This document shows positions 4,304 through 27,979 of a stretch of 33,695 nucleotides of DNA, in pieces. Each line of letters begins with the position of its first letter. Position 1 is the stretch's first letter. Position numbers and translations under genes: made by a program. The stretch is from Flavobacteriales bacterium (GTDB lineage: Bacteria > Bacteroidota > Bacteroidia > Flavobacteriales_D > Parvicellaceae), in contig JAQWSL010000063.1 in the NCBI GenBank assembly GCA_029243225.1, forward strand, positions 1 to 33,695. The letters are read 5' to 3'. The notes under the pieces are model-generated. The model was not told the DNA's origin, searched no databases, and worked only from the letters and a program-made list of their open reading frames with translations.

Positions 4304-4495
4304 ATGAAATTAGTTTTATTATCTATTGCTTTACTAGCTCTTGCATTTGCAGGAATTGCAGTAAAAATACTATTTAAAAAAAACGGAGAGTTTGCTGGTA
4401 CTTGCGCAAGTAACAACCCATTGCTTAACAAAGAGGGAGAATCTTGTGGGATATGTGGCGCTAGACCTGAAGAAAAATGTAAAGAGAAAGGCTAG
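4304..4495 (+). CDS. nqrM: NqrM-like Na+-NQR maturation protein (DUF539-type)
   Basis: A 63-residue protein with one N-terminal transmembrane helix (residues 3-24), a basic KK, and four cysteines at 34, 48, 51 and 59 in the pattern GTCAS, ESCGICG, EEKC. This matches the layout of NqrM (DUF539), a small single-helix protein with four conserved Cys. In Vibrio and Klebsiella it is needed to mature Na+-NQR, presumably by delivering iron to the site shared by NqrD and NqrE. In proteobacteria it usually follows apbE. Here it lies next to apbE but convergent, with a 4-base tail overlap. The length, the Cys pattern and the neighbourhood all agree. It needs its own promoter or read-through from the upstream lipoprotein gene. 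Confidence 0.75.
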   Translation: MKLVLLSIALLALAFAGIAVKILFKKNGEFAGTCASNNPLLNKEGESCGICGARPEEKCKEKG

Positions 4496-5583
4496 TTCAA
4501 TATAAAATCACTCATGCCCTTACTCTGAACAGATAAATTCTTTCCATTTTCATCATAAACAAAATAAGCAACCAATTTGAGTTCAGGATGATTAGAAATA
4601 AAAGCTAACGATTGATCTACACCCATTACCATAAATGCTGTTGCAAAGGCATCAGCAGAAGCTGCGTTATTTGAAATAACAGTTACACTCAACAAGCTAT
4701 GATCGACCGGATAGCCGTTCACAGGATTAATTGTATGTGAATATTTGACACCATTCTTTTTATAAAATTTCCTGTAATTACCTGATGTTGCTAATGCATT
4801 GTTGCTTAGACCAATAATTAGTTGAAATTCATTTTCTCCAGGTGAAGAATTTTCAACTGGCCTGTCAATACCAATTCTCCATATACCACCAGAAGGATTA
4901 ACTCCTGAGGTTCTAACCTCACCACCAATTTCAACCATGTAGTTATTCAACTGCTTTTCCTCTAAAAATTCTGCTATAACATCAACTGAAAACCCTTGTG
5001 CTATTCCGTTGAAATCTAATTTAGAATTTGAATTAACCTTATAAAAAAAAGGTGTAATTTGATAAACATCACCAGCACCCGAAAGGGTGTCAAATACTAA
5101 ACAAAAAGATGAATCATTGAAAGAAATTAAATTAAGTAATGAATCTATAGCATGATTATCAATAGAATCTTTTTTTACATTATCATTGTAAAAGCCCCAA
5201 TAATTAACCAAAGGGAAAATGGCTGGGTTAAATGCTCCATTTGTTAAATTATATACATCTTTTGCTTTTTGGAAGCAGTTTTTAATGTAAGAGGATGTGT
5301 TTCCTAAATAAAAATGAGCACTTCCATTATTGAATTTCGAGATATCACTAGAGTCAATATAAATAGATAATTCAGAATCAAAAGCATTTAATATCGAATC
5401 AAATTCAGTTGAGAAATCTCTTAAAGAATCATCATTATAAATAATTGAAAAAGATGTTCCTTGTGCGTATCCAGAAACTTCTAGATAACTTGAACTGATG
5501 TCATCATCTAAATTATCACAAGCTGTGAAAAGATAAAAAGCTAAAAAAATTAATGGGATTTGTCTTTTACCCACCAAAGTCAT
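4492..5583 (-). CDS. apbE: FAD:protein FMN transferase ApbE
   Basis: About 363 residues. It transfers FMN from FAD onto Thr in target proteins. In this operon the targets should be NqrB and NqrC. The N-terminus is a lipoprotein signal (LIFLAFYLFTAC), placing the enzyme outside the inner membrane. Family motifs include LDFNGIAQGFSVD, VEIGGEVRTSG, the HTINPVNGYPV segment and the metal-binding ASADAFATAFMVMG near the C-terminus. I chose the ATG at 5583. A TTG one codon upstream is also in frame. The start overlaps the last bases of nqrF, showing translational coupling and co-transcription with the nqr operon. Confidence 0.93.
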   Translation of the reverse strand: MTLVGKRQIPLIFLAFYLFTACDNLDDDISSSYLEVSGYAQGTSFSIIYNDDSLRDFSTEFDSILNAFDSELSIYIDSSDISKFNNGSAHFYLGNTSSYIKNCFQKAKDVYNLTNGAFNPAIFPLVNYWGFYNDNVKKDSIDNHAIDSLLNLISFNDSSFCLVFDTLSGAGDVYQITPFFYKVNSNSKLDFNGIAQGFSVDVIAEFLEEKQLNNYMVEIGGEVRTSGVNPSGGIWRIGIDRPVENSSPGENEFQLIIGLSNNALATSGNYRKFYKKNGVKYSHTINPVNGYPVDHSLLSVTVISNNAASADAFATAFMVMGVDQSLAFISNHPELKLVAYFVYDENGKNLSVQSKGMSDFILN

Positions 5584-6871
5584 CAAATCTTACGTTTTCT
5601 GGAGGAACACCCCAGTCATCACACATTTTGATAACCGCTTGATTCATCATAGGAGGTCCACAGAAATAAACTTCTAAATCTTCAGGTGCTTCATGTTTTG
5701 TTAAATATTGATCAATTACCACTTGATGAACAAAACCTGTAAAACCGTCACCTTCAGAATCATTTACATCCTTTTTATTGACCCAATTATCCTCAGGTAA
5801 TGCATCAGAAAGGACTAGATAAAATTTGAAATTTGGAAATTCTTTTTCAAGATCTCTAAAGTAATGAATATAGAAAAGTTCTGCCCTAGATCTTCCACCG
5901 TACCAATAAGTAACTTTTCTACCTGTTTTTAAAGTTTTAAAAAGTTCATACAAGTGTGAACGCATAGGGGCCATCCCAGCACCACCACCAATGTACAACA
6001 TCTCTGAATCAGATTCATTAATGAAGAACTCACCATAAGGACCTGAAATAGTAACTTCATCTCCTTCTTTTAATCCAAAGATATATGAAGAGGCAATTCC
6101 AGGGTTAATATCTGCCCATGAATCTTTAGCTCTATCCCAAGGTGGAGCTGCGACTCTTACATTTAACATTATTTTTCTTCCTTCGGCAGGGTAAGAAGCC
6201 ATCGAATATGCACGAACAACATCCTCGTCATTTTTCATCACTAAATCTCTTATTGCAAATTTTCCTTCTGACCAATCTTTTTCAAACTTATCTGGCTCTC
6301 CAGGATGATCTTGTGGATGTGCTTTAATATCCATATCTGAAAATTTAACTTCTGTCTTTGGAATATTAATTTGAATATACCCACCCGCTTTATAGTCCAT
6401 GTCTTCAGGAATATCAACTATGAATTCTTTTATGTAAGTAGCAACATTGTAATTAGATGAAACTACTGCCTTCCATTCTTTAACACCCATCACCTCTTCC
6501 TCCACTTCAATTTCCATGTCTTCTTTCACTTTAACTTGACAACCTAGTCTAAAATTATCAGCTATTTGTTTTCTAGAAAAATGAGGAACTTCAGTAGGAA
6601 GAATACTCCCCCCACCAGTGTGTACTTGGCAAGTACATTGAACGCAAGTTCCACCCCCACCACATGCAGAAGGTAAAAAGATACCCTGACTACTTAGTGT
6701 AGAAAGCAATGTTGAACCTCCATCAACTTCCAATGTTTGATCACCATTAATGGTTATCTTCACCTTACCAGAAGGCATTAATTTTGCTTTGGCAAATAGT
6801 AGTATTAATGTTAAACTAAGAACAACAACTAAAAAAACAGTTATCGCTAATATTATAATTGAGTAATCCAT
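5567..6871 (-). CDS. nqrF: Na+-NQR subunit F (NADH dehydrogenase, FAD and 2Fe-2S)
   Basis: A 434-residue entry subunit that oxidises NADH. It has an N-terminal membrane helix (residues 4-27), then a ferredoxin domain with cluster ligands Cys70, Cys76, Cys79 and Cys111. The FAD domain has RAYSMASYP (220-228). The NAD domain has IGGGAGMAPMRSH (294-306) and the CGPPMM motif (404-409). It ends in the FDDFGG tail seen in NqrF. The protein is somewhat longer than the Vibrio one (about 407), partly from a linker around residues 170-215. The gene lies 19 bases after nqrE and overlaps apbE. Confidence 0.97.
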   Translation of the reverse strand: MDYSIIILAITVFLVVVLSLTLILLFAKAKLMPSGKVKITINGDQTLEVDGGSTLLSTLSSQGIFLPSACGGGGTCVQCTCQVHTGGGSILPTEVPHFSRKQIADNFRLGCQVKVKEDMEIEVEEEVMGVKEWKAVVSSNYNVATYIKEFIVDIPEDMDYKAGGYIQINIPKTEVKFSDMDIKAHPQDHPGEPDKFEKDWSEGKFAIRDLVMKNDEDVVRAYSMASYPAEGRKIMLNVRVAAPPWDRAKDSWADINPGIASSYIFGLKEGDEVTISGPYGEFFINESDSEMLYIGGGAGMAPMRSHLYELFKTLKTGRKVTYWYGGRSRAELFYIHYFRDLEKEFPNFKFYLVLSDALPEDNWVNKKDVNDSEGDGFTGFVHQVVIDQYLTKHEAPEDLEVYFCGPPMMNQAVIKMCDDWGVPPENVRFDDFGG

Positions 6872-6890
6872 AATTTTTATAAATCAAATA

Positions 6891-7505
6891 TTATATTTCA
6901 AATCCCATAAATCCTAAAAACGCTAATCCCATAAGACCTGTTATTAAAAAAGCCATACCTACGCCCCTTAAAGGAGCAGGAACATTAGAGTATCTAATTT
7001 TCTCTCTAATTGCAGCAATCAAAACAACTGCGATAAACCAACCAACACCAGAACCAAAACCATAAACTGTTGCTTCAACAGTAGTTCCATATTGTTCTTG
7101 TTGCATGAATAAAGCACCACCTAAAATCGCACAATTAACAGCAATAAGAGGCAGGAATATACCTAATGCTCCGTAAAGTGCAGGAGAAAACCTTTCGACT
7201 ATCATTTCGACAAGCTGAACAATTGAAGCAATAACTGCAATAAACATGATGAAGCTAAGAAAGCTTAAATCATAACCTGCATATTCTGCGCCTAACCAAC
7301 TTAATGCACCTTCTTTTAATACATAATTCTCAAGTAAGTAATTTACAGGAATAGTAACCGTTAAAACAAATATAACTGCCATTCCTAACCCAAAAGCAGT
7401 TTTCACTGTTTTAGAAACAGCTAAATAAGAACACATGCCAAAGAAAAAGGCAAAAATCATGTTGTCTACAAAGGCACTTTTTATAAATAGTTTAAGTAAA
7501 TCCAT
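6891..7505 (-). CDS. nqrE: Na+-NQR subunit E
   Basis: A 204-residue polytopic inner-membrane subunit with about six hydrophobic helices, homologous to NqrD in inverted topology. Cys25 (GMCSYLAVS) and Cys125 (AVNCAILGG) are the two ligands NqrE is expected to give to the intramembrane iron centre shared with NqrD. The conserved ERFSPALYGALGIFLPLI segment (104-121) is present. Length is normal. It is the fifth gene of the operon, 18 bases after nqrD. Confidence 0.97.
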   Translation of the reverse strand: MDLLKLFIKSAFVDNMIFAFFFGMCSYLAVSKTVKTAFGLGMAVIFVLTVTIPVNYLLENYVLKEGALSWLGAEYAGYDLSFLSFIMFIAVIASIVQLVEMIVERFSPALYGALGIFLPLIAVNCAILGGALFMQQEQYGTTVEATVYGFGSGVGWFIAVVLIAAIREKIRYSNVPAPLRGVGMAFLITGLMGLAFLGFMGFEI

Positions 7506-7523
7506 TTCTATATTTTTTAACTA

Positions 7524-8204
7524 TTAATGAGTTTCAATTAATTTAGGGTTTCTTGCTTTTTGAATCCAAATGTAAATAGCAACTAGAATTAATGATGAAG
7601 GAGGGAATAACATAAGACCGTTGTTCATGTATCCCATTTCATAAATAGAATCTCCTATCACCTCAACACCAAATAATTTTCCGGAGCCAAAAAGCTCTTT
7701 AAAAAAGGATACAACCACAAGCACCATTGCGTAACCAATAGCATTACCAACACCGTCTAATGCTGCTGCCCATGGTTTATTTGCCAGTGCAAAAGCTTCT
7801 AACCTTCCCATTATAATACAGTTGGTAATGATTAGACCAACAAATACAGAAAGTGATTTAGATACATCATATAAGTATGCTTTAAGGACCTGATCTACAA
7901 TAATAACCAATGCTGCAACTACTACCAATTGAACAATGATTCGTATTCTATTTGGAATAAGGTTTCTAATTAAGGAGATTAAAACATTTGCAGATACTAG
8001 TACAAAAAGTACAGAAACACACATTACAACAGATGGTTCCATCTGAACTGTTACGGCTAATGCAGAACAAATACCCAAGACCTGAATGGTAACGGGGTTG
8101 TTATCATTTAATGGATCTGTTATTAATTTTTTGTTTTTCTTTGAAAACAACGGTTCTCTATCTTTCTTGACAACCTGTTTTTCTATTTCAGCAACTTCGC
8201 TCAT
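7524..8204 (-). CDS. nqrD: Na+-NQR subunit D
   Basis: A 226-residue polytopic membrane subunit. Cys46 (LGICSALAVT) and Cys129 (IITNCIIMGR) are the expected iron ligands that pair with those of NqrE. The motif NCIIMGRLEAFA and the downstream DGVGNAIGYA are typical of NqrD. The N-terminus carries about 25 extra charged residues (MSEVAEIEKQVVKKDREPLF) compared with proteobacterial NqrD. It lies 21 bases after nqrC in the same operon. Confidence 0.97.
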   Translation of the reverse strand: MSEVAEIEKQVVKKDREPLFSKKNKKLITDPLNDNNPVTIQVLGICSALAVTVQMEPSVVMCVSVLFVLVSANVLISLIRNLIPNRIRIIVQLVVVAALVIIVDQVLKAYLYDVSKSLSVFVGLIITNCIIMGRLEAFALANKPWAAALDGVGNAIGYAMVLVVVSFFKELFGSGKLFGVEVIGDSIYEMGYMNNGLMLFPPSSLILVAIYIWIQKARNPKLIETH

Positions 8205-8225
8205 AATTTTATTGTATTAAGCTTT

Positions 8226-9017
8226 TTATAGATTAGCTGTTTCTAATTTATTTTCGTTGAAATGTTTATAATAAACATAAAAAGTTCTTTTCAACATTTC
8301 TTGAACACCAACGCTTGTAAATGTCCCACCACTAATACCATCAACCTGAGTCAATTTATCAGATAAACTTCCCGGCTTCACTACTTTAATAGATCTAAAA
8401 TTGGCAGCAGATAATTCAGAATTAGATTTTATTCTACCAATCTTTAATGCATCAAACTGATCTTCAAATTCATCTTTATTAATTTCTGCTCCTAATCCTG
8501 GGGTTTCAGCTTTATGGTCAAAAACTGCACCAGCAATACTCTCTCCATCACTTTCAACGCTAATATAACCCCAAATCGCATCCCAAAGGCCTTTGCCTGT
8601 AACTGGTAATACATAAAAAGTTTTACCATCAATTTCACATTCGAAAAGAGGATAATTTCTAGCTTCTACAGCAATGTTTCTATATTCTTTTTGAAGGTCA
8701 ATATTAAAAGCATCCAAAGTGTCTTTATCTTTAATATCATCAGTAGATGTTTTAACAGATCCATCAACTACATTACCTGTATAATCTAATATCACACGCT
8801 TTTTCACATATTTATTAAAATTCCCTTCTGCTTCAGACCTTTCAAAATTAATTCCTGGAAGAGAATTTAATATGTTTTGCTTCTTTTCATTTTTCACATT
8901 GCTTAGCTGCATTGGTTTTAAAGATGTAGAAACAAATGCTAAAAGTCCACCTACAAGTACAACAAGTATAATTGCAAAAGAAATAGTGTATGCGTTACTG
9001 TCTTTGTTTATTGCCAT
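8226..9017 (-). CDS. nqrC: Na+-NQR subunit C (covalent FMN)
   Basis: A 263-residue subunit with a single N-terminal transmembrane helix (residues 11-31) and a periplasmic FMN-binding domain. The flavinylation site is DGISGGTFTS (226-235), so Thr232 is the likely FMN attachment residue modified by ApbE. The usual DxxSGAT motif has Gly in place of Ala here. HKAETPGLGAEI (168-179) is another family hallmark. It starts one base after the nqrB stop, so translation is probably coupled. Confidence 0.96.
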   Translation of the reverse strand: MAINKDSNAYTISFAIILVVLVGGLLAFVSTSLKPMQLSNVKNEKKQNILNSLPGINFERSEAEGNFNKYVKKRVILDYTGNVVDGSVKTSTDDIKDKDTLDAFNIDLQKEYRNIAVEARNYPLFECEIDGKTFYVLPVTGKGLWDAIWGYISVESDGESIAGAVFDHKAETPGLGAEINKDEFEDQFDALKIGRIKSNSELSAANFRSIKVVKPGSLSDKLTQVDGISGGTFTSVGVQEMLKRTFYVYYKHFNENKLETANL

Positions 9018-9018
9018 T

Positions 9019-10206
9019 TTAAGCTGTTTTTAATCGTTTATTTCTTCTATTAACATTTGCTCTTATAACCATGTGATCGATAAGTGGAGCAAATACATTA
9101 GCAATCAAAATTGCCAACATTATCCCCTCAGGATAAGCAGGATTAACCATTCTAATTAAAATACCTAAAAATCCAGCTAGAAATCCGTAAATAAGTTTTC
9201 CAGAATTTGTTTGTGAAGCAGTTACTGGATCGGTAGCCATAAACACTAAACCAAACATAAAACCACCTACCATTAACTGATGAAGGGCAGGCAATTCAAA
9301 ATAACCATTACCACCAACTAAATTAAGAACAGAAGCCATTACAAAGCCACCAAAGAAAAAGGAAATCATAATTCTCCAGCTTGCAATGCCAGTCCATAAC
9401 AATAATCCAGCACCTATTAAACACATAAGAACAGATGTTTCACCAACAGACCCAGGAATGAAACCAAGAAATGAATCCATCATACTGTATTTTTGCTGGA
9501 ATTGGGCGACATTTTCAAGTGCTGGTGTTTCTTGCATAAAAGAAGCTAGATCTCCTAAAGCAGTAGCTCCACTAGAAGCGTCAACACCTTCCATTTTATC
9601 AAAACCAGTAATCCAAACTTCATTACCAGACATCTTAGTTGGGTATGCAAAGAATAAAAATGCTCTAGCAGTTAAAGCAACATTTAGAATATTCATTCCT
9701 GTACCACCAAACACTTCTTTACCAATAACAACAGCAAAAATTGTTGCAACAGCAACCATCCACAAAGGAACATCAGCAGGCATAATTAGAGGAATTAACA
9801 TTCCTGAAACTAAAAACCCTTCTTGAACAGAGTGACCATTCTTGATAGCAAAAATAAACTCAACAAATAGTCCTGCTCCATAAGAAACAACCACTAATGG
9901 TAGAACAACTAAGGCACCTTTACCTACTATTTCCCAAAATGAAACAGCTTCACCAGTCAATAAAAAATGCTGATAGCCAGTATTGTAAATTCCAAAAAGC
10001 AGACATGGAATTAGTGCAATTATCACAATCATCATCGTTCGTTTCAAATCTATAGAATCTCTAACATGAGTTCCATTTTTTGTTACATGATTTGGAGTAA
10101 ACATTAACGTCTCAATAGCATCTACTAGAGGGAAAAACTTTTTAGTTTTTTCACTCTTGTTAAGCTTAGCATGTGCGTTATCAAATATTTTTCTTAAAAA
10201 CTTCAC
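9019..10206 (-). CDS. nqrB: Na+-NQR subunit B (covalent FMN, sodium channel subunit)
   Basis: A 395-residue polytopic subunit with about ten helices. It carries covalent FMN at Thr215 in the motif VDASSGATAL (208-217). The segments HSVQEGFLVSGMLIPLIMP and VFGGTGMNILNVALTARAF are characteristic. The start codon is GTG at 10206 (MKFLRKIFD), which fits the usual NqrB N-terminus. A GTG start is unusual here because most neighbours use ATG. The gene starts 16 bases after the nqrA stop. Confidence 0.97.
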   Translation of the reverse strand: MKFLRKIFDNAHAKLNKSEKTKKFFPLVDAIETLMFTPNHVTKNGTHVRDSIDLKRTMMIVIIALIPCLLFGIYNTGYQHFLLTGEAVSFWEIVGKGALVVLPLVVVSYGAGLFVEFIFAIKNGHSVQEGFLVSGMLIPLIMPADVPLWMVAVATIFAVVIGKEVFGGTGMNILNVALTARAFLFFAYPTKMSGNEVWITGFDKMEGVDASSGATALGDLASFMQETPALENVAQFQQKYSMMDSFLGFIPGSVGETSVLMCLIGAGLLLWTGIASWRIMISFFFGGFVMASVLNLVGGNGYFELPALHQLMVGGFMFGLVFMATDPVTASQTNSGKLIYGFLAGFLGILIRMVNPAYPEGIMLAILIANVFAPLIDHMVIRANVNRRNKRLKTA

Positions 10207-10222
10207 TTAATTCAATTTTAAA

Positions 10223-11578
10223 TTACATACACTCATCATAAATCATGTCTAAACCGTCACGAACGATTTGCTGAACATTGATTTTAGATGTACAAACAAA
10301 TTCACAAAGCGCAAAATCTTCAGGGGCTACTTCATAAATACCTAGGTTCTCCATTCTTTCTATATCGTTAGAGAGGATAGATTTAATTAAATAAACAGGA
10401 TAAATATCAAATGGAAAAACTTTCTCATATTGACCTGAAACAACATAAGCTCTTTCTTCACCATTAATATTGGTATCCATTGCATATTCTTTGGATTTAG
10501 GCATCATCCAAGATGGATAAGCTCGAGATGCTGAAAATCTTTTAAAACCGGCACTTAACCAACCTTCCGTTAAAAAAAACTTATAATTATCTCCTTCAGG
10601 AAGAATAGTTATTTGAGAATCATAAAAAGATAAGAAATCATCAGAACTAACTTGCGAACCTGTAAGAGGATTACCAGAAATAATTCTACTATTTTCTTTA
10701 ACAGATTTAGAAATAATAGAACTAATACTACTTCCAATGATTGTTTTGAAGTATTTTTTATCAGATGCATTCTCACCTGTAACTGCAATAACCTTAGTGG
10801 CATCATACTTACCTGTAAGTGCATACCTTCCAAGAATTAGAACATCTTGGGGATTAATATACCAAACAATTTCACCTTTATTAATGGGGTTAATATGATG
10901 TATTTGAACCCCTACGTTTCCAGCAGGATGAGCACCTTTTACATTAGTAATTTGAACTTCTTTTGCATTTTTAAAAACTGCGCTAGACGACTTTCTAGTT
11001 TGAAGGTGAACATTGCCATCAGTAAGTTTGTTTAACAACTCAATCCCAGCATTAAACTCAGCATCTTTGCCATCAAGGATAAAGTCATTATCAGGTGCAA
11101 GAGGATTAGAATCAAAAGAAGAAATAAAGATTGCCTTTGGAGTATCAGTTGGGTTTGCGACAATATCAATAGGTCTCATTCTAAGAAAAGGCCATAAACC
11201 AGAAGAAAGCATCATTGATTTTACAGCTTCTCGATCTAAATTTTTAACATCAGTAACAGTTGATTCCAAATATGAAGTTTCTGCATCTGCTTCAACAATA
11301 ACATCAAGAATTCTTCTCTTAGCACCTCTAACAATATCTTTTACAACACCAGATACTGGAGAAACATAATAGATAGAGTCTCTATATTTATCGAAAAAAA
11401 CTGGTGAGCCAGCTTTTACTTTATCGCCAACTTTAACAACCAATTTTGGTGTTAGTCCTGTAAAGTTTGGGGGTTGAATAGAAAAAAGTTTCGATTTAGC
11501 AGCTTCAACAAGGACTTTTTCAGCTTTCCCTTTCATGTTGACATCTAAACCTTTACGAATGGTTATCGTTTGAGACAT
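10223..11578 (-). CDS. nqrA: Na+-NQR subunit A
   Basis: A 451-residue cytoplasmic-side subunit, first gene of the operon. The N-terminus ITIRKGLDVNMKGKAE is the family hallmark. It is followed by a lipoyl/barrel-sandwich-like region (VVKVGDKVKAGSPVFFDK, then VSPVSGVVKDI). Further motifs include MRPIDIVANPTDTPKAIF and the C-terminal CEFVCTSKINVQ. Length is normal. It begins 92 bases from the divergent DUF5103 gene. The likely operon promoter is the palindromic -7 element at 11601-11616, about 23 bases before the ATG. Confidence 0.97.
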   Translation of the reverse strand: MSQTITIRKGLDVNMKGKAEKVLVEAAKSKLFSIQPPNFTGLTPKLVVKVGDKVKAGSPVFFDKYRDSIYYVSPVSGVVKDIVRGAKRRILDVIVEADAETSYLESTVTDVKNLDREAVKSMMLSSGLWPFLRMRPIDIVANPTDTPKAIFISSFDSNPLAPDNDFILDGKDAEFNAGIELLNKLTDGNVHLQTRKSSSAVFKNAKEVQITNVKGAHPAGNVGVQIHHINPINKGEIVWYINPQDVLILGRYALTGKYDATKVIAVTGENASDKKYFKTIIGSSISSIISKSVKENSRIISGNPLTGSQVSSDDFLSFYDSQITILPEGDNYKFFLTEGWLSAGFKRFSASRAYPSWMMPKSKEYAMDTNINGEERAYVVSGQYEKVFPFDIYPVYLIKSILSNDIERMENLGIYEVAPEDFALCEFVCTSKINVQQIVRDGLDMIYDECM

Positions 11579-19789: not shown

Positions 19790-21448
19790 ATGGATTCTCA
19801 ATTAAAAAATATAGACCGATTAAAAGACACTATTCTACCTTTTCTTTTAGCAGTAGGATTTAATGGTAAAATAATGTCTGTAGGTAAAGGATTGATTAAA
19901 CTCATTGGAGAAGACATTCATTACAATCATGTAGATGACTATTTCAACTTTTCACATCCAAATTCATTTAACGATTGTATTAGAATTATTAATGAAAACA
20001 AACTCATTAAAACACAAATCAAGAATAAAACCACTGTATTAAAAGGAAATGCACACATTTATAATAAAGATCAAATTATTCTATTTCTATTTGTTCCAAT
20101 ATTCACAAACCAAGACACTCTTTCCTCATCGGGATTAACTTTATCTGATTTTCCTGAAAATTCTGTGATGGCGGAATATTTATTCCTCATTGAAAGCAAA
20201 AGAACTGGTTTAGAAGAAGCAAATAAGATTATAGAAAATTTTCAAAAACAAAATAGAGATCTTCAAAAATCATACAACGAACTTGAAAATGTTTCTAGAC
20301 TACCATCAGAAAATCCCAATCCTGTAATTAGAATTAATGATGAAGGTGTTGTTGTATACGCAAATGAATCATCCTTAGACAGCTTTCTAGATTATTTAGA
20401 TTTAAAAGTGGGAGATACTGTTCCAGACAGTTTCAATATTCTATTAAATCAAGCATACTCCTCTAAAAGTGGGATTTTTGACAAAACCATTGAATTAGGT
20501 CCTAAAACATATTCAATAACTATTATCAAAGTATCAAATAGAAATTATTTCAACCTTTACGCCTTAGAAACTACCAACTCCAAAAATGAAATACATCAGG
20601 AAAAAAACCAACTTCAAAATTTAAAATCAGAGCTTAGTTTGGTAAAAGATAATTTAGAAGAAACGATTAGTTTTCAATCAAGCGAATTGGAGTTGTCTAA
20701 AATAGATTCACATGAAAACTTAAAACAAGTTGCAATAATTCAAAACATTTTCTTGGACAATTCATCAAACCTTGATGATCTAGAAATATTTTTCAAACCA
20801 AAACACATCGCATCTGCTGATTTCTTTTTAATTGAACCTACAGAAGAAGAAAACCATATATATGTAGTTGTTGGCGACTGTGTAGGTCATGGTTTACCTG
20901 GAGCCTTTTTATCCATATTTTTCGCTAATGAAGTTAAAAATGCACTTAAGAAAGAAGCAATTGATTCTTCGTTAATTTCAATTTATAATAAAATTGAGCA
21001 CAATGTTTTTTCGAGTGAATTTTACACAAAAATTGACAGCTTTACATCAACAGATTTCACAATAATAAGAATTAATACTAACACCAAAAACATTGAATTT
21101 GCTTCAAACAATCAAAACTTCATCTCTTACGATGGTACTAAAAATGAAATTTATGAACCAACAAATGACACCACTTTTGCTGGGATTAAATCTAGTATTA
21201 ATTCGAAAAAAATAATAAGTGGAAATTTTAATGCAGAAAACAAACAACTAATTTTATTTAGTGATGGGATAATCAATCAATTTGGTGGTAAAAAACAAAA
21301 AAAATTAAAAAGAAGATATCTATATCAATTGATCACATCTTCTAAAGTTTTTAAAGAAAATAAATGCTCTATTAAAGAGCTTTTCAACAATTACAAAGAC
21401 AAGGAAGAACAAACAGATGATTGCGTTTGGTTAAGCTTTAAAGTTTAA
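19790..21448 (+). CDS. SpoIIE/PP2C-type protein phosphatase with HNOBA-like and PAS sensor domains
   Basis: A 552-residue soluble signalling protein. Residues 12-160 resemble the HNOBA domain (H-NOX-associated, PAS-like). The shared points are LPFLLAVGFNGKIMSVGKGL, FNFSHPNSF, TVLKGNAHIY, ILFLFVP and the hallmark GLTLSDFPENSVMAEYLFL, then a coiled coil like the guanylate cyclase signalling helix. A degenerate PAS domain spans about 172-265, then a second coiled coil to about 305. The C-terminal SpoIIE phosphatase (325-552) has ASADFF (D344), GDCVGHGLPGAF (362-373), FSDGI (D492) and QTDDCVW (D543, D544), so metal ligands look intact. It likely dephosphorylates a Ser/Thr-phosphorylated partner such as an anti-sigma-factor antagonist. 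No partner and no H-NOX gene are in the window. It overlaps the aminotransferase gene tail to tail by 4 bases. Confidence 0.8.
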   Translation: MDSQLKNIDRLKDTILPFLLAVGFNGKIMSVGKGLIKLIGEDIHYNHVDDYFNFSHPNSFNDCIRIINENKLIKTQIKNKTTVLKGNAHIYNKDQIILFLFVPIFTNQDTLSSSGLTLSDFPENSVMAEYLFLIESKRTGLEEANKIIENFQKQNRDLQKSYNELENVSRLPSENPNPVIRINDEGVVVYANESSLDSFLDYLDLKVGDTVPDSFNILLNQAYSSKSGIFDKTIELGPKTYSITIIKVSNRNYFNLYALETTNSKNEIHQEKNQLQNLKSELSLVKDNLEETISFQSSELELSKIDSHENLKQVAIIQNIFLDNSSNLDDLEIFFKPKHIASADFFLIEPTEEENHIYVVVGDCVGHGLPGAFLSIFFANEVKNALKKEAIDSSLISIYNKIEHNVFSSEFYTKIDSFTSTDFTIIRINTNTKNIEFASNNQNFISYDGTKNEIYEPTNDTTFAGIKSSINSKKIISGNFNAENKQLILFSDGIINQFGGKKQKKLKRRYLYQLITSSKVFKENKCSIKELFNNYKDKEEQTDDCVWLSFKV

Positions 21449-22356
21449 TTTCTAGGAATTGAACAACCCAATTTTTTTGTTCTTAAGCTGTACTCACTTT
21501 GTAAAGCTTGAGTAATTTCTCCTTTCAGTCCTTCACCTATTACCCTTTCATCAATAGCAACAACATGACTTAACTCACCCATAGTTCCTGTGGTGAAAAC
21601 TTCATCAGCAGTATAGAATTCTGTGAGTGAGCACCTCTTTTCTTTGCATTGAACACCTGTATCTTTGGCGATTTCAATAACTTTTTGTCGAGTTAGCCCG
21701 GGAAGGCAACTGTCTGCATAAGGAGTTACTAAAATTTTATTTTTAACATAAAAAATATTTGTAGCGTTGGTTTCAGAAACCATTCCATCTAAATCCAACA
21801 TCAGAGCATCATCAGCCCCATATATATTAGACTCAATTTTTGCTAAAATATTGTTTATTAAATTATTATGATGAATTTTTGAATCCAAGCATTGCGGTGA
21901 ATTTCTTCTTATAGATGATGTTATAAGCTTTATACCTTCGTTACCATAAACGGGAGGTTTGAATTCTGGCAAAACAATTAGAGTACATCCATATATATTT
22001 AATTCAGGATTCATTCCAGATGTTGTTTTCAATCCTCTAGAGAGTGTTAACCTTATGTGAACACCGTCATACATTTCATTGGCATTAAGACAAGAGAAAA
22101 TAGCTTCTTTAACAAAGTTTCTAGAAGGAATGTTTTTAAAATGCATGGCTTTTGCTGAATCAAACAAACGATTTAAATGCTCATCTAATTGAAAAATTTT
22201 ACCATCGTAAACTCTTAAACCCTCCCAAACTCCATCTCCTCCTTGAACTAAACTATCCAAAACAGATATTTTGGCATTTTCTCTTAATATTAATTCATCT
22301 CCTACATAAATTAGGGTGCCGTCATTTTTAGGGTTAGGTTGATTAAATTTAGACAT
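21445..22356 (-). CDS. Class IV PLP aminotransferase (BCAT/D-amino-acid transaminase superfamily)
   Basis: A 303-residue enzyme of PLP fold type IV. Lys160 (CLDSKIHHNNL) is the Schiff-base lysine. VSETNATNIF (193-202) carries the conserved cofactor-binding Glu, and TTGTMGEL binds the phosphate. IRLTLSRGLK supplies the usual substrate-side Arg region. The sequence does not resolve branched-chain aminotransferase, D-amino-acid transaminase or aminodeoxychorismate lyase activity. The sulfotransferase-like gene lies 4 coding-free bases upstream, in the same order as the two halves of plant BCAT-like proteins as I recall them. That context argues for a specialised transaminase rather than the main IlvE. 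Confidence 0.85.
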   Translation of the reverse strand: MSKFNQPNPKNDGTLIYVGDELILRENAKISVLDSLVQGGDGVWEGLRVYDGKIFQLDEHLNRLFDSAKAMHFKNIPSRNFVKEAIFSCLNANEMYDGVHIRLTLSRGLKTTSGMNPELNIYGCTLIVLPEFKPPVYGNEGIKLITSSIRRNSPQCLDSKIHHNNLINNILAKIESNIYGADDALMLDLDGMVSETNATNIFYVKNKILVTPYADSCLPGLTRQKVIEIAKDTGVQCKEKRCSLTEFYTADEVFTTGTMGELSHVVAIDERVIGEGLKGEITQALQSEYSLRTKKLGCSIPRN

Positions 22357-22360
22357 AGAA

Positions 22361-23086
22361 TTAAGTTTGGAATTTTAAAATTTGATTATAATGTATTAAA
22401 CATTTTTCATAAATGTCAATTAAGTGAATAGGTAATTTTTGATCATTGGAAACATAATTACCAAAAGATGTGCTTTTATGTACATTATTATACCAATATT
22501 TAGCCCATATACCATCTTCTATTTTTGGACCTTTTTCCCAAATGAGCATGTTAGATGAGAATGAGATTGAAGAAAATTCACAAATTTTTGTTAATACCCT
22601 TTCAGAATTCTTCAATACTTGCTTAGAATCAACTACTATAAAAGGAATATTTTGCAATGCTAAATATTTTAATAATTCATGCTGTATTTCATAACAAGTA
22701 TCTAGCATTGTTGGTTTTTCCATGTGTTGAGAATAAGATAACAACATCTCTTTTGGATGTCTTGTTAATATTAAGTTATGGAAATTAGCTAGAAACGACC
22801 AATCTAAACCCAATAAATGATTGGCCATATTTTTAATGAAATATACAGATTGATTTACATCTGGATGAATCATATTATTAATAACACTTGAAGGATTTAA
22901 ATCCATACTATCAAGAACTTCTTCTCTAGAAGGCCTCCAAACTCCTGTGTGTTTTAAAAAATATCCAAATAATGGCTCATCAATTACTTTGGTATCTTGT
23001 CTATTGGCAAAAGAATACATTAAAGCAGTAGAGATATTTCTAGGACCAGACCAAAGCGCTATTTTCTTTACTCCCAATTTTTTCAT
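22361..23086 (-). CDS. Sulfotransferase-like P-loop protein paired with the aminotransferase
   Basis: About 241 residues from the ATG at 23086. A TTG five codons upstream is also open. The N-terminal strand and loop IALWSGPRNIST (9-20) is the 5'-phosphosulfate-binding motif of PAPS-dependent sulfotransferases. LILTRHPKEMLLSYSQH holds the 3'-phosphate-binding Arg109 and Ser117. The remainder is a short alpha/beta fold, with a conserved C-terminal KIEDGIWAKYWYNNVHKST. Substrate unknown. The gene ends 4 bases before the class IV aminotransferase, so the two are co-transcribed and probably act together. It is divergent from the small Cys-rich lipoprotein gene, 31 bases away. Confidence 0.72.
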   Translation of the reverse strand: MKKLGVKKIALWSGPRNISTALMYSFANRQDTKVIDEPLFGYFLKHTGVWRPSREEVLDSMDLNPSSVINNMIHPDVNQSVYFIKNMANHLLGLDWSFLANFHNLILTRHPKEMLLSYSQHMEKPTMLDTCYEIQHELLKYLALQNIPFIVVDSKQVLKNSERVLTKICEFSSISFSSNMLIWEKGPKIEDGIWAKYWYNNVHKSTSFGNYVSNDQKLPIHLIDIYEKCLIHYNQILKFQT

Positions 23087-23117
23087 ATTATATTTAATCA
23101 AACTTAAATATTATAAA

Positions 23118-23303
23118 ATGAAAAAAATTATTATACCGGCATTAACTTGCCTGTTTTTAGTTGGACTTTCTTCTTGTAACAAATGTCAAGACTGTAATTG
23201 TGGATCTACGACTGAAGAAGTTTGTAGAGATGATTTTGATTCAAATGACGAATATAAAGAAGGAATAGTGTTATTAGAGGCTTTTGGTTGTGATTGCAAT
23301 TAA
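23118..23303 (+). CDS. Small Cys-rich lipoprotein
   Basis: A 61-residue protein starting at the ATG in TTATAAAATG. An upstream extension of the frame runs across the divergent gene and is not real. Residues 1-19 form a lipoprotein signal (LFLVGLSSC). The mature peptide has KCQDCNCGSTTEEVC and ends FGCDCN, giving seven Cys in all. I do not recognise a named family, but such short Cys-rich lipoproteins occur in flavobacteria. A damaged second copy of the C-terminal half follows directly downstream. Confidence 0.75.
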   Translation: MKKIIIPALTCLFLVGLSSCNKCQDCNCGSTTEEVCRDDFDSNDEYKEGIVLLEAFGCDCN

Positions 23304-23304
23304 G

Positions 23305-23401
23305 GAAATTTGCGAAAAAAAACTTTGACCATTAACAAGATTATGAAGACTACATCTCTACTTTAGAAGATGCTGGTGGAGACTGTACTAATCAAATTTA
23401 A
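23305..23401 (+). pseudogene. Decayed tandem duplicate of the C-terminal half of the small lipoprotein
   Basis: Removing one A from the run of eight A at 23315-23322 gives EICEKNFDH, a TAA stop, then QDYEDYISTLEDAGGDCTNQI and a final TAA at 23399-23401. This aligns without gaps to the intact neighbour from EVCRDDFDSNDEYKEG to its GCDC end. Identities include the Glu-x-Cys, Phe-Asp, Tyr, Ile, Leu-Glu, Gly and Asp-Cys positions. A frameshift and an internal stop break it, and the signal peptide half is missing. It begins two bases after the intact gene's stop. Confidence 0.6.
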
Positions 23402-23403
23402 TT

Positions 23404-23443
23404 GAAAATCACTTTTTCTTAATTGATTATGTGGTTTTCTTTT
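23404..23443 (+). terminator. Probable intrinsic terminator between the lipoprotein and ggt genes
   Basis: GAAAATCAC (23404-23412) pairs with GTGGTTTTC (23431-23439) with one G-T pair. The loop is 18 bases, and TTTT follows. It ends at the stop codon of the convergent gamma-glutamyltransferase gene. The long loop makes it weaker than the one at 19614. Confidence 0.4.
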
Positions 23444-25142
23444 AGAAACCTGAACACGAATCATCTCCTCTAGGATCCGCACCTCCTTCTAACAAACCTT
23501 CACTTATAACAATAGCATCTACTCTATTCATGGAATTAACGCTTTTAAAAGAGTGTCCCATTTGTTTTAATTGTTGAATTACTAAACTATCGAATTTATT
23601 GGACTCAATTTTAATTTCATCTGGCCTCCATTGATGATGAAACCTACCTATAGAAACCGCATCTTGTATTGAGAGGTCGTATTCTATAACATTTAAAATT
23701 GTTTGTAAAACACCTGTTATTATTGTTGAGCCACCTGGAGTACCAACAACCATAAACAACTGACCATTCTTTTCTAAAATTGTTGGTGTCATTGAGCTAA
23801 GCATACGTTTATTTGGTTGAATTGAATTGGCTTCTCCTCCTATTAAACCATACAAATTAGGTTGTCCAGGTTTTGAGCTAAAATCATCCATTTCATTGTT
23901 CAAAAGAAAACCTGCACTTCCCACAACAACTCCAGAGCCATAAGAACTATTTAAGGTAGTGGTAACAGAAACTGCATTGCCATAAGTGTCAACTATTGAA
24001 TAATGAGTAGTTTGATCACTTTCCTTAAAATTAAAATTTCCAGGGAAAATTGAATCGCTTAATGTTGCCATTATTGAACTATAATTGGACATCCGATGTT
24101 TTAAATACATAGAGTCTAATAACTGAGTAAGTGGAACGTCTATAAAATCAGGATCCCCCATGTACTTTGAACGATCAGCAAAAGCTCTTTTTTCTGCCTC
24201 AGCAATACAATGTATAGATTTATAAGAGTGTAAACCCATTTGATTCAAATCAAAAGGTTCTAACATTTTCAACATTTGTAATAGACATGCACCACCACTA
24301 GAAGGAGGTCCCATAGAAATTATTTTATAATTTTTATAATATCCAATTAGTGGTTCTCTCCAGATACTTTCATAATTTTGTAAATCTTCTGAAGTTATAA
24401 CACCACTGCTCCTTTCCATTTCCTGAGTAATCTTTAAAGCGATTTCTCCCTCATAAAAACCTGCTCTTCTTTTTGCTTTAATTAAATACAAAGTATTGGC
24501 TAAATCATGTAAATAAATTGAATCCCCTTTAAGCCAATTATCTTTAACAATAAAAGATGGTTCTATGCTGTTAAATTTTAATTTAGAATTAACAAAATAA
24601 TTTAAGCCATCAGCTTCAAGTTGGGTTAATGGGAAACCATTTTGAGCTAACTCAATAGAAGGTTGTATTAACTCTCCCCAAGAAAGAGAGCCAAATTTCT
24701 GATGTGCTTTACACATTCCATCAACAGTACCGGGAACTCCAACTGCCAAAGACCCATCTAAGCTTAATCTTTTTACAATTGTTCCATCATCATTCAAATA
24801 CATGTCTCTATGAGCTGTACTCGGTGCTTTCTCTCTAAAATCCAATGTATAACAATCACCCTTGTTTAGTCTTATTACCATAAAACCACCTCCACCGATA
24901 TTACCAGCACTTGGATGCACAACAGCCAACGCAAACTGAACAGCAATAGCTGCATCAATTGCATTGCCACCCTTCTTTAAAATTGACTTCCCAATTTCGC
25001 TTGCTAATGGATGAGCTGAAACAACCATAGCAGAATCTATAATAGCGGATTTGTCAATCTCATCATGAACATTTGATGGGTTGGAGTTAACACATGAAAG
25101 GAAGCAAAAACTCACACAAAAAAGAATAAATATTCTATACAT
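23442..25142 (-). CDS. ggt: Gamma-glutamyltransferase
   Basis: About 566 residues from the ATG at 25142. A TTG three codons upstream is also in frame. It is a lipoprotein-type exported enzyme (CVSFCFLSC, Cys17) that cleaves or transfers the gamma-glutamyl group of glutathione and related peptides. The N-terminal half has GGNAIDAAIAVQFAL and GNIGGGGFMV. The autocatalytic cleavage site is QTTHYSIVD, with nucleophile Thr378, so the small subunit is about 190 residues. Later motifs include LNNEMDDFSSKPG and RMLSSMTPT. The gene starts 5 bases after the 943-residue T9SS protein gene and may be co-transcribed with it. Confidence 0.95.
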   Translation of the reverse strand: MYRIFILFCVSFCFLSCVNSNPSNVHDEIDKSAIIDSAMVVSAHPLASEIGKSILKKGGNAIDAAIAVQFALAVVHPSAGNIGGGGFMVIRLNKGDCYTLDFREKAPSTAHRDMYLNDDGTIVKRLSLDGSLAVGVPGTVDGMCKAHQKFGSLSWGELIQPSIELAQNGFPLTQLEADGLNYFVNSKLKFNSIEPSFIVKDNWLKGDSIYLHDLANTLYLIKAKRRAGFYEGEIALKITQEMERSSGVITSEDLQNYESIWREPLIGYYKNYKIISMGPPSSGGACLLQMLKMLEPFDLNQMGLHSYKSIHCIAEAEKRAFADRSKYMGDPDFIDVPLTQLLDSMYLKHRMSNYSSIMATLSDSIFPGNFNFKESDQTTHYSIVDTYGNAVSVTTTLNSSYGSGVVVGSAGFLLNNEMDDFSSKPGQPNLYGLIGGEANSIQPNKRMLSSMTPTILEKNGQLFMVVGTPGGSTIITGVLQTILNVIEYDLSIQDAVSIGRFHHQWRPDEIKIESNKFDSLVIQQLKQMGHSFKSVNSMNRVDAIVISEGLLEGGADPRGDDSCSGF

Positions 25143-25147
25143 TGAAA

Positions 25148-27979
25148 TCAATTAACTATTAAAGTGAAAAGAGAAAATTGGGATTTCAGCCTCACCAAGA
25201 CCTGATAAATTCCGATTGGAAGATGATTAATATTAATTTTTTTGGAATTAATATTGTTTTCAGAAAAATAAATTTCAGCTCCTATAGAATTAAAAATTTG
25301 AACGTTAAATTCTACAATTTGATTTGTTTGAATCATAAAATAATTAGTAGCCGGGTTTGGAAATAAATTAAATGTTGTAGGAGATAAATAAGAAACATTT
25401 ACTACAGATGAAACAAAAATAGAATCATTAACAGCACAACCGTTCCCATCCACAACAGTGACACTGTAAAAACCAGACTCAAGGTTTGTGATAGTTGAGT
25501 TGTTAAGCCCATTGCTCCAAGAATAGTTAAAGGAACCAACCCCTCCGCTTACAACAACTTCAGCTGAACCATCAAATGAAACAGTTTCTGGGGAAGTTAT
25601 AAAGCTTAAACCTATAGAATCTGGCTGAGTAATTAAAACATCTAAAGTATCGGAATAACAACCAGTGCTATCTTGAGAGTACACAGTATAGCTCCCAGCC
25701 GAAAGATTAGTTATAAGACTATTTGTGAAATTTAAATTATTAACATTAAAAAAATCTATTGGATATTCACCAAAACTATTAATACTTAATTGCCCACTGC
25801 TATCATTGTAACAAAGTAAATCTTGAATATTTAAGGAAATGAAGATAGAGTCTGGGCTTTCTACAGAAAAAAACAATGAATCATAACAATTAAGATTATC
25901 TATAGCTACTGAATAATTTCCTGCTGGTAAATTACTAATACTATTATCTGTAGATCCATTACTCCAACTGTAAGTAGTAAAAACTGTATCTGACGGAAAT
26001 AAATCAATACTTCCATCATCAATAGAGTAACAACTTAGAAAATTCACAAAGCTACTGTCTATTACAGGAGGTCCATCAATTATTTCAACAGAATCAACTA
26101 CAACACAACCGTCTAAATGAGTAATTGTAACACTCCAGTATCCTTCAGACAAACCGTTTGCTGTTTTAGTGCTATCCCCATTTTCCCAATCGAATGTACA
26201 ACCACTAAACATACAAGGACAACCCGAACTACTTAAAGTTGCTGATCCCGAAATACCACCAGGACATGGATTATTTATAACATTGCCAAATGATATTACG
26301 TAAGGATCATATAATAAAAAAGAAACGAGCTCATAACATCCTGTAGAATTGGTAACTATTAATTTATTTGAGCCCGAACCTACAGAAATTAATGAATCGT
26401 TAACTGAACCGTTCGACCATAGAAAAGTATGTTCTAGTGAAGGTGAAACTAAATTCACTGTTACCAAACCGTCTTGGAAACCATTACAAGAGGGATTAGT
26501 TATGTTTAAACTTGAGATGACACTACCATTTCCACAATCTACAAGCTGATTAGTATAAATACCGTTGTAATTGTTACCCATGTAAGCTCCCCAAGCAATA
26601 CCTGAATTTGGAATTGAAAAAGAGGTGTTTAATCGATTTACATAAATGCCATTCCATGCTGAAGGATTAATGCTGTCTGCTCTGTAGGCATAAATAATGT
26701 CAATAAAACCATCATTATCTAAATCGGTAACAAGTGGTGAGCTAGCTAAGTTAACACCTCCAACAGCTGAAGTAATTGAAGAAACTGTATCGTTTTCAAA
26801 ATCAATTAATAATAATTCGTGTTCAAAATAACTGCTGATATTGTTGACTGAAATTAAAACTTCATCTCTGCCATCATTATTACTATCAAAAGCATTAGCT
26901 GAAGCATAATGCAAATCTGAAATACTATCCATCCACTCAATGTTCCCAGTTTCTCCATCAATCATTACCTGAAAGTGATCAAAAAATGAAGGAGCAACTC
27001 CTTGATTACATACTGCAAAAACATCAGGTGTTAAATCACCACCTGTAAAATTTCCAATAACTGGTGCAGCACTTGATTCGCTATTAGCAATAGTAACACT
27101 CCATTTCTGTGCAAGATTAATTCCATCAAACCTCATAATAGAGCCAGCATAAGATTGAACAATTATATCCAAGTATCCATTATTATTAAAATCTGCTAAA
27201 GATGCTGGAGCAACAAAACCTTTTGTTGAGTTTGTTGCAAGCTGAGATGCATTTATTAAGCTATTATTCATTAAATCTGACAAAGCTGCTATCCACATGG
27301 AACCAGCATGATTCTCACCCCCAGTGCCAAAAACAATTTGAAGGTTTCCATTGTTTTGAATATCAGCAATAACAGGAGAACAATAAATTTCATTACTATC
27401 AGGCATGGGTGCCATTGCCAATACAGACCCTGTTGCACCACTTAAAACCATTAAATGACCTGTTGGCCTTGGATCCCATGGATTAGCATTATGATCACCA
27501 CCATTGGCAACTAAAATATCTTTAACCATATCTGAATTTTGATCAGGAATGAATTGACCTGAATAAAAATTATACCAACCACTATCTGCAGGATTTAAAC
27601 CTAAACCTTGAGGGAATGCTTCCCAAATAACACTTCCGTCAATTCCATTTAAAGCATAAAACTGACTATTTCTTCCACCTATAAAAACATCTGGAACATT
27701 GTCATTATTAATATCACTAAAAATAGCACTAGAAAAAACTTCATCATAAGAAGGCGTAGTCCAGAGATTTGAACCATCTGAACCGTCAATAGCTAAAATA
27801 CCATTATTACTAAATGTTGAATCTGTACCTGCTCCAATAACAATGTCATTAATTCCATCTCCATTTAAATCTGTTGTTCGAGGTGAAGAAAATGTAGGCA
27901 CTAAATCGGTAAAGGAAGACCATTGAGCAGGAAAATAAGAGATAATTCCTAAAGAGAATATAATTAAAAAGTATTTCAT
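25148..27979 (-). CDS. T9SS-sorted surface protein with FG-GAP/VCBS repeats and SprB-like repeats
   Basis: A 943-residue exported protein with signal peptide MKYFLIIFSLGIISYFPA. The N-terminal half is a beta-propeller of FG-GAP/VCBS repeats with Asp-rich calcium loops (DLNGDGINDIVIGAG, DINNDNVPDVFIGG, DFNNNGYLDIIVQS, DLDNDGFIDIIYAY). From about residue 485 come roughly five SprB-like Ig repeats built on NPSCNGFQDG, LSCYSIDDGSIDL and WSNG, each ending in a Gly-x-Tyr-x-Val strand and a Cys. The last 80 residues are a T9SS type-A sorting domain (FNLFPNPATNYFMI, VQIFNSIGAEIYF). The repeats suggest adhesion or carbohydrate binding at the surface, but the partner is unknown. Confidence 0.9.
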   Translation of the reverse strand: MKYFLIIFSLGIISYFPAQWSSFTDLVPTFSSPRTTDLNGDGINDIVIGAGTDSTFSNNGILAIDGSDGSNLWTTPSYDEVFSSAIFSDINNDNVPDVFIGGRNSQFYALNGIDGSVIWEAFPQGLGLNPADSGWYNFYSGQFIPDQNSDMVKDILVANGGDHNANPWDPRPTGHLMVLSGATGSVLAMAPMPDSNEIYCSPVIADIQNNGNLQIVFGTGGENHAGSMWIAALSDLMNNSLINASQLATNSTKGFVAPASLADFNNNGYLDIIVQSYAGSIMRFDGINLAQKWSVTIANSESSAAPVIGNFTGGDLTPDVFAVCNQGVAPSFFDHFQVMIDGETGNIEWMDSISDLHYASANAFDSNNDGRDEVLISVNNISSYFEHELLLIDFENDTVSSITSAVGGVNLASSPLVTDLDNDGFIDIIYAYRADSINPSAWNGIYVNRLNTSFSIPNSGIAWGAYMGNNYNGIYTNQLVDCGNGSVISSLNITNPSCNGFQDGLVTVNLVSPSLEHTFLWSNGSVNDSLISVGSGSNKLIVTNSTGCYELVSFLLYDPYVISFGNVINNPCPGGISGSATLSSSGCPCMFSGCTFDWENGDSTKTANGLSEGYWSVTITHLDGCVVVDSVEIIDGPPVIDSSFVNFLSCYSIDDGSIDLFPSDTVFTTYSWSNGSTDNSISNLPAGNYSVAIDNLNCYDSLFFSVESPDSIFISLNIQDLLCYNDSSGQLSINSFGEYPIDFFNVNNLNFTNSLITNLSAGSYTVYSQDSTGCYSDTLDVLITQPDSIGLSFITSPETVSFDGSAEVVVSGGVGSFNYSWSNGLNNSTITNLESGFYSVTVVDGNGCAVNDSIFVSSVVNVSYLSPTTFNLFPNPATNYFMIQTNQIVEFNVQIFNSIGAEIYFSENNINSKKININHLPIGIYQVLVRLKSQFSLFTLIVN

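Follow-up and report, generated by a model that had tools for sequence, protein, structure and literature searches.

An intact cysteine-rich lipoprotein gene followed by the headless relic of a second tail type in a Flavobacteriales genome

The window that we analysed is a stretch of 33,695 nucleotides (contig C94 in our numbering) from a Flavobacteriales bacterium whose assembly, called G000 below, comprises 2.2 Mb in 112 contigs and is 86.5% complete. It carries an intact gene for a small Cys-rich lipoprotein and, directly behind it, a broken sequence related to the 3' half of such a gene. According to the base comparisons and trees described below, this locus once held two tail types, one of which now survives as a headless fossil. 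A sequence-only reading had taken the broken segment for a decaying tandem duplicate of the gene in front of it. The observation was right and its interpretation half right: a decaying second copy is indeed there, but its tail type is not that of the gene beside it.

The live gene, the relic and their surroundings

The intact gene (copy A) is an open reading frame on the plus strand, at 23118-23303 with its TAA at 23301-23303, and encodes 61 amino acids. We divide it into a head, running from the signal peptide to KCxxC (23118-23195), and a tail, here tail 1, running from EVC to GCDCN and the stop codon (23217-23303). The protein has a signal peptide, a motif (LSSC) that is lipobox-like by the generally known consensus, a lipid-bearing cysteine, C20, and then six cysteines, namely C23, C26, C28, C36, C58 and C60. 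Of five heads with which the live head was compared, it most resembles the one in the same-locus gene of G002 (61 of 78 bases); the 30 bases upstream also correspond to G002 at 23 positions. The live tail is closest, in ungapped comparison, to the tail of a paralogue on contig C71 of the same genome (56/75); when gaps are allowed, C71 (63/87) and G006 (61/83) are about equally close.

The relic of a second copy (copy B), which we call tail 2, lies at 23305-23401 on the same strand. It had been placed two bases after the gene; the adjacency holds, but only one base separates the live stop codon from the GAA codon at 23305 with which the relic begins. Read as a 3' half, the relic gives E-I-C, then a run of eight A (23315-23322) in which the frame shifts by one base, then NFDH, an in-register TAA (23333-23335) and finally QDYEDYISTLEDAGGDC, up to a closing stop at 23399-23401. 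Its two in-register pieces are thus one base out of frame with each other, and both the frame break and the internal stop are present as first described. There is no ATG, GTG or TTG within the relic in its own frames. The second copy is indeed decaying, as had been proposed: the frame break, the internal TAA and the absent head all bar its translation, and it is non-coding. Its main lesion, however, is the loss of the whole front half rather than the A8 run, which decides little because there is an in-register stop, no front half and no start codon besides.

Gene and relic sit between two minus-strand genes that serve as syntenic anchors, a sulfotransferase-domain gene (22361-23101; PF19798) on one side and a gamma-glutamyltranspeptidase gene (23442-25151; PF01019) on the other. 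Our genus sample consists of three genomes, G000 itself, G001 and G002. G002 has one intact small lipoprotein gene between the same two neighbours, and the flanks of the window are collinear with it. G001 has no small lipoprotein gene at the locus, where the gamma-glutamyltranspeptidase gene runs almost straight into the sulfotransferase gene. In the comparison with related genomes that the sequence-only reading had recommended, the segment has a similar counterpart in G002, and an intact second copy was found in neither genome. The outcome named as refuting that reading, a lack of similarity in related genomes, did not occur. Judged by the identity of the next neighbour, which we take to be an aminotransferase-like gene, G001 (in which this gene is 93% identical to that of the window) is the nearer relative and G002 (77%) the more distant one.

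As an observation in its own right, this aminotransferase-like gene and the sulfotransferase gene beside it (together 21445-23101 of the window) are both present in 82 of 92 loci from what are, by record title, several phyla, the 92 including repeats and six loci that were fetched for the other neighbour; the two thus probably form a functional pair. Farther off, at 4492-11578, lies a minus-strand run of genes whose translations suggest a cluster for a sodium-pumping NADH:quinone reductase, together with an ApbE-like gene.

A terminator-like hairpin with a T-rich end follows the relic on the plus strand at 23404-23443 (-12.8 kcal/mol for the stretch, from a single fold without shuffles). G002 has a hairpin at the same place, 3' of its intact gene (-16.7 kcal/mol, likewise a single fold without shuffles). 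From this placement, the live transcript probably extends through the relic, which would then belong to its 3' untranslated part.

Kinship of the relic

That the segment is a second, broken copy of the C-terminal half of such a gene is well established. Profile A1, built from six proteins with the live gene as a row and the relic left out, finds the relic in its own genome at E 3.1e-5 over profile positions 37-63, flagged '1 TAA'. When the spacer is compared with gene tails, its best local protein score is 72 for the tail of the G002 gene, 53 for that of the C71 paralogue and 45 for the live tail, while the highest scores among 2000 dinucleotide shuffles are 42, 36 and 39, so that for each of the three tails 0/2000 shuffles equal the observed score. 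At the level of bases, the match to the G002 tail is a strong signal (63/86, z 9.5). The match to the neighbouring live tail is a modest one (48 of 87 aligned bases, z 3.2 relative to codon shuffles), and if it were considered by itself, chance would find some comfort in it. Chance resemblance is nevertheless ruled out by the relic-free profile and the shuffles, and in our opinion its probability is negligible.

It had first been supposed that the relic is a diverged copy of its neighbour, but matters are not so simple. On the 75 bases that avoid the frame break, it shares 54 with the G002 tail but 42 with the live tail; the tails of G014 and G006 follow with 42 and 41, the gene on contig C4 of G001 with 36 and C71 with 35. 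Where G002 and the live tail differ from each other, the relic sides with G002 at 18 sites versus 6 (one-sided P 0.011). A MAFFT alignment of the two loci pairs the G002 head with the head in the window and the G002 tail with the relic, leaving most of the live tail as an insertion inside the G002 gene. The AU test rejects five of nine topologies (AU 0.005-0.015): three that join relic and live tail, which disposes of that sisterhood in the arrangements tested (AU 0.005-0.013), one that joins the live tail with G002 and one that joins the relic with the C71 type. Those that pass include three in which the relic goes with G002 and one in which it goes with the tails of G006 and G014 (AU 0.30). 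In a tree that takes account of gaps, the relic groups with G002 at 86% ultrafast bootstrap. By the trees, the exact sister of the relic may thus be either the G002 tail or the G006/G014 tails.

The two tails of the window are then old relatives (42/75), and the suggestion that the duplication is old stands in this sense. The accompanying suggestion, that the break may be recent, also agrees with what we found. Relic and G002 tail are 72% identical over the 75 bases, whereas the intact flanking genes of the window and G002 are 67% and 70% identical, and their third codon positions 50%. A tail that had been free of selection since the split would be expected to lie well below 72%; the relic is about as similar to its counterpart as are the intact neighbours. 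Its loss was therefore probably fairly recent, and for the greater part of the period after the separation from G002 the tail was probably still coding, though 75 bases give an indication and not more.

How the locus may have arisen

The history that we prefer, and to which we would give an even chance, starts from two small lipoprotein genes in tandem, A and B, whose heads were alike and whose tails differed. In the lineage of the window, a deletion would have removed the spacer, the terminator of A and the front half of B, so that the tail of B came to lie directly behind the stop codon of A. Deprived of a start and of an export signal, this tail would have become 3' untranslated sequence of A and would later have acquired the frame break and the stop. 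In G002 the locus would have been reduced to one gene that combines an A-like head with a B-type tail, and in G001, which is nearer to the window, the small lipoprotein genes would have been lost. What speaks for this history is the relic itself, the shared locus, the kinship of the tails, the absence of the gene in G001 and the existence of tandem pairs elsewhere; the existence of an ancestral pair we infer, and likewise which deletions took place and in what order. None of the three genomes of the genus, our own among them, shows an intact A-B pair here, and the scheme costs separate deletions in three lineages. Its join could make use of the three bases AGG, which in G002 occur both at the start of the tail and after the stop, but such an overlap is too short to carry weight as support.

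Fewer events are needed if the ancestor was a single gene with tail 2, as in G002, and one insertion or recombination placed a new tail behind its head in the lineage of the window, making the live gene chimaeric and displacing the old tail as a relic. We consider this possible, although on the whole rather unlikely. Besides its economy, it profits from the fact that the live head and the bases upstream of it match G002 best among those compared, and from the MAFFT alignment, in which most of the extra segment of the window falls inside the G002 gene. It would also account for the site counts. At sites where the live gene matches one of G002 and C71 but not the other, its head sides with G002 17 times and with C71 4 times, and its tail with C71 23 times and with G002 10 times (Fisher P 0.0006). 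An extra linker cysteine (one alignment column apart) and an extra tail cysteine are, moreover, shared by the live gene with the C71-type genes, and G002, G006 and G014 have neither. However, separate tree tests on the head or the tail are not significant (head alternative AU 0.41), and the AU tests fail to reject one tree for both. Further, an exact insertion between head and tail requires a special event, and no recent donor was seen for a tail whose predecessor looks recently lost: C71, the nearest other match in our own genome (which is 86.5% complete), differs from the live tail at 19 of 75 sites. This is too many for a recent copy of the C71 gene, and recent copying or capture from it is ruled out. 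Whichever of these two histories is preferred, both have a working tail-2 gene at the locus that is now a fossil tail, and this common part we regard as quite likely. The site counts, for their part, are suggestive of different histories for the live head and the live tail, that is, of a mosaic gene.

Two further explanations remain. The 3' half with its stop codon might have been doubled head to tail, in which case the second half was never a gene. One base between two abutting tails is what such a duplication would leave, AGG stands at both would-be breakpoints in G002, and the sequence after the G002 stop (TAAGG) resembles the join, as this explanation would likewise predict. But if the duplication occurred in the lineage of the window, relic and live tail should be sisters, and the AU test rejects exactly this; if it was older, a tail without a head must have remained coding-like. 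We therefore hold it to be improbable. An error of sequencing or assembly that conceals a truly intact second copy is, in our view, very improbable indeed. It is true that the frame break falls in a run of eight A and that the assembly is in 112 contigs, but a faulty count of A explains neither the separate in-register TAA nor the absence of the entire front half, and the flanks are collinear with those of G002.

The lipoprotein family and its likeness to known systems

Profiles A1 and A4 (the latter of 14 proteins) define a group of small four-Cys lipoproteins of which the live gene is a member, being a row of both alignments (E 2.0e-27 against A1 and 6.5e-23 against A4). The layout of the group, that is, a signal peptide, a lipid-bearing cysteine, CxxC, one cysteine in the middle and one at the C-terminal end, is found in the live protein, and the columns invariant in the 14 rows of A4 are C20, C23, C26, C36 and C60. 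The broad group is common: of 399 genomes sampled from the order, 177 have a match to A4 at E <= 1e-4. With the narrower A1 and a limit of E <= 1e-6, the count is 12 of 399. The number of cysteines after the lipid-bearing one is even in all 17 distinct, though not independent, sequences matching at E <= 1e-5 among the examined loci (weaker matches being uncounted); 14 have four and three, the live gene among them, have six. An even number fits paired disulfides. The signal peptide, the lipobox and this even number make it most likely that the live protein is exported by Sec as a lipoprotein and stabilised by disulfides. Elsewhere, the signal peptide of a family member at G289:C35:16303-16503 (L186) is interrupted by an in-frame TGA, which may be an error or a real loss.

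We found no name for the group in Pfam or NCBIfam. The live gene matches no Pfam family at E <= 1, its best NCBIfam score is 14.4 bits against a cut-off of 75, and the single Pfam match of the G002 protein lies below its cut-off and is not credible. A scan of viral contigs with profile A1 confirmed no relative, and among the titles listed by a literature search none dealt with this lipoprotein family. No relative of solved structure was found by sequence (best E 0.32). The AlphaFold model, made from a two-row alignment, has a mean pLDDT of 74 and a pTM of 0.58 and suggests strand-strand-helix after the signal helix; Foldseek of this model against the PDB gave nothing at E <= 0.001.

Tandem copies do occur in the family, and the idea that it can form arrays is borne out to this extent. 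At G265:C3:313098-313606 (L185) two copies with a period of 311 bases show no difference within the gene or in the 63 compared bases after it; they differ at 24 of 321 compared bases, all upstream of the start codon. Either the whole gene was duplicated very recently or the repeat comes from the assembly. In G037 (L015, G037:C102) and G048 (L012, G048:C221) the two heads of the pair agree at 55/69 and 61/69 bases while the tails differ, and like tail types match between the two genomes (95/111 and 79/90). The 5' flanks are similar too, and the arrangement is kept in both. Conversion of heads within these pairs is not proven: the within-genome values straddle those between the genomes (57/69 and 59/69). 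Of two looser pairs, the one in G012 has similar heads (58/69) and the one in G007 has not (32/69, ungapped), so that heads are similar in three of the four pairs compared.

It is tempting to generalise, and to regard the small disulfide-rich lipoproteins of the order as built of two modules, a conserved export-and-CxxC head and exchangeable tail types with matching numbers of cysteines. The window would then be a snapshot taken just after one tail replaced another, and exchange of this kind, if general, would explain many different tails on one kind of export head. We find this proposal doubtful at present. The locus does give one testable hint that in these unnamed lipoproteins the history of the head differs from that of the tail, and it shows how a two-copy small-gene locus can look midway through its collapse.

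A live gene with a headless alternative 3' end behind it recalls the 'orphan tails' that are displaced in polymorphic toxins such as Rhs and CdiA. The likeness is one of layout only: the window gene encodes a tiny lipoprotein without a Pfam or NCBIfam domain above cut-off, and there is no evidence of switching. Closer are the pairs of G037, G048 and G265, which are also Cys-rich lipoprotein genes in head-to-tail order with similar or identical heads, those of G037 and G048 sharing the CxxC...C...C layout with the window family. Unlike the window, they have both copies intact, spacers of about 110-122 bases and no relic. Tandem gene duplication followed by pseudogenisation is an ordinary process in bacteria, and the locus resembles its outcome in having adjacent related segments, one intact and one truncated with a frame break and a stop, and in that related genomes carry zero or one gene there. 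It differs from a simple duplicate pseudogene in that the relic is nearer to the gene of another genome than to the live gene beside it; the two tails had thus diverged by the time of the loss. Thus, we see here a fairly well resolved but ordinary example of the turnover of a small gene family that gains, mixes and loses copies.
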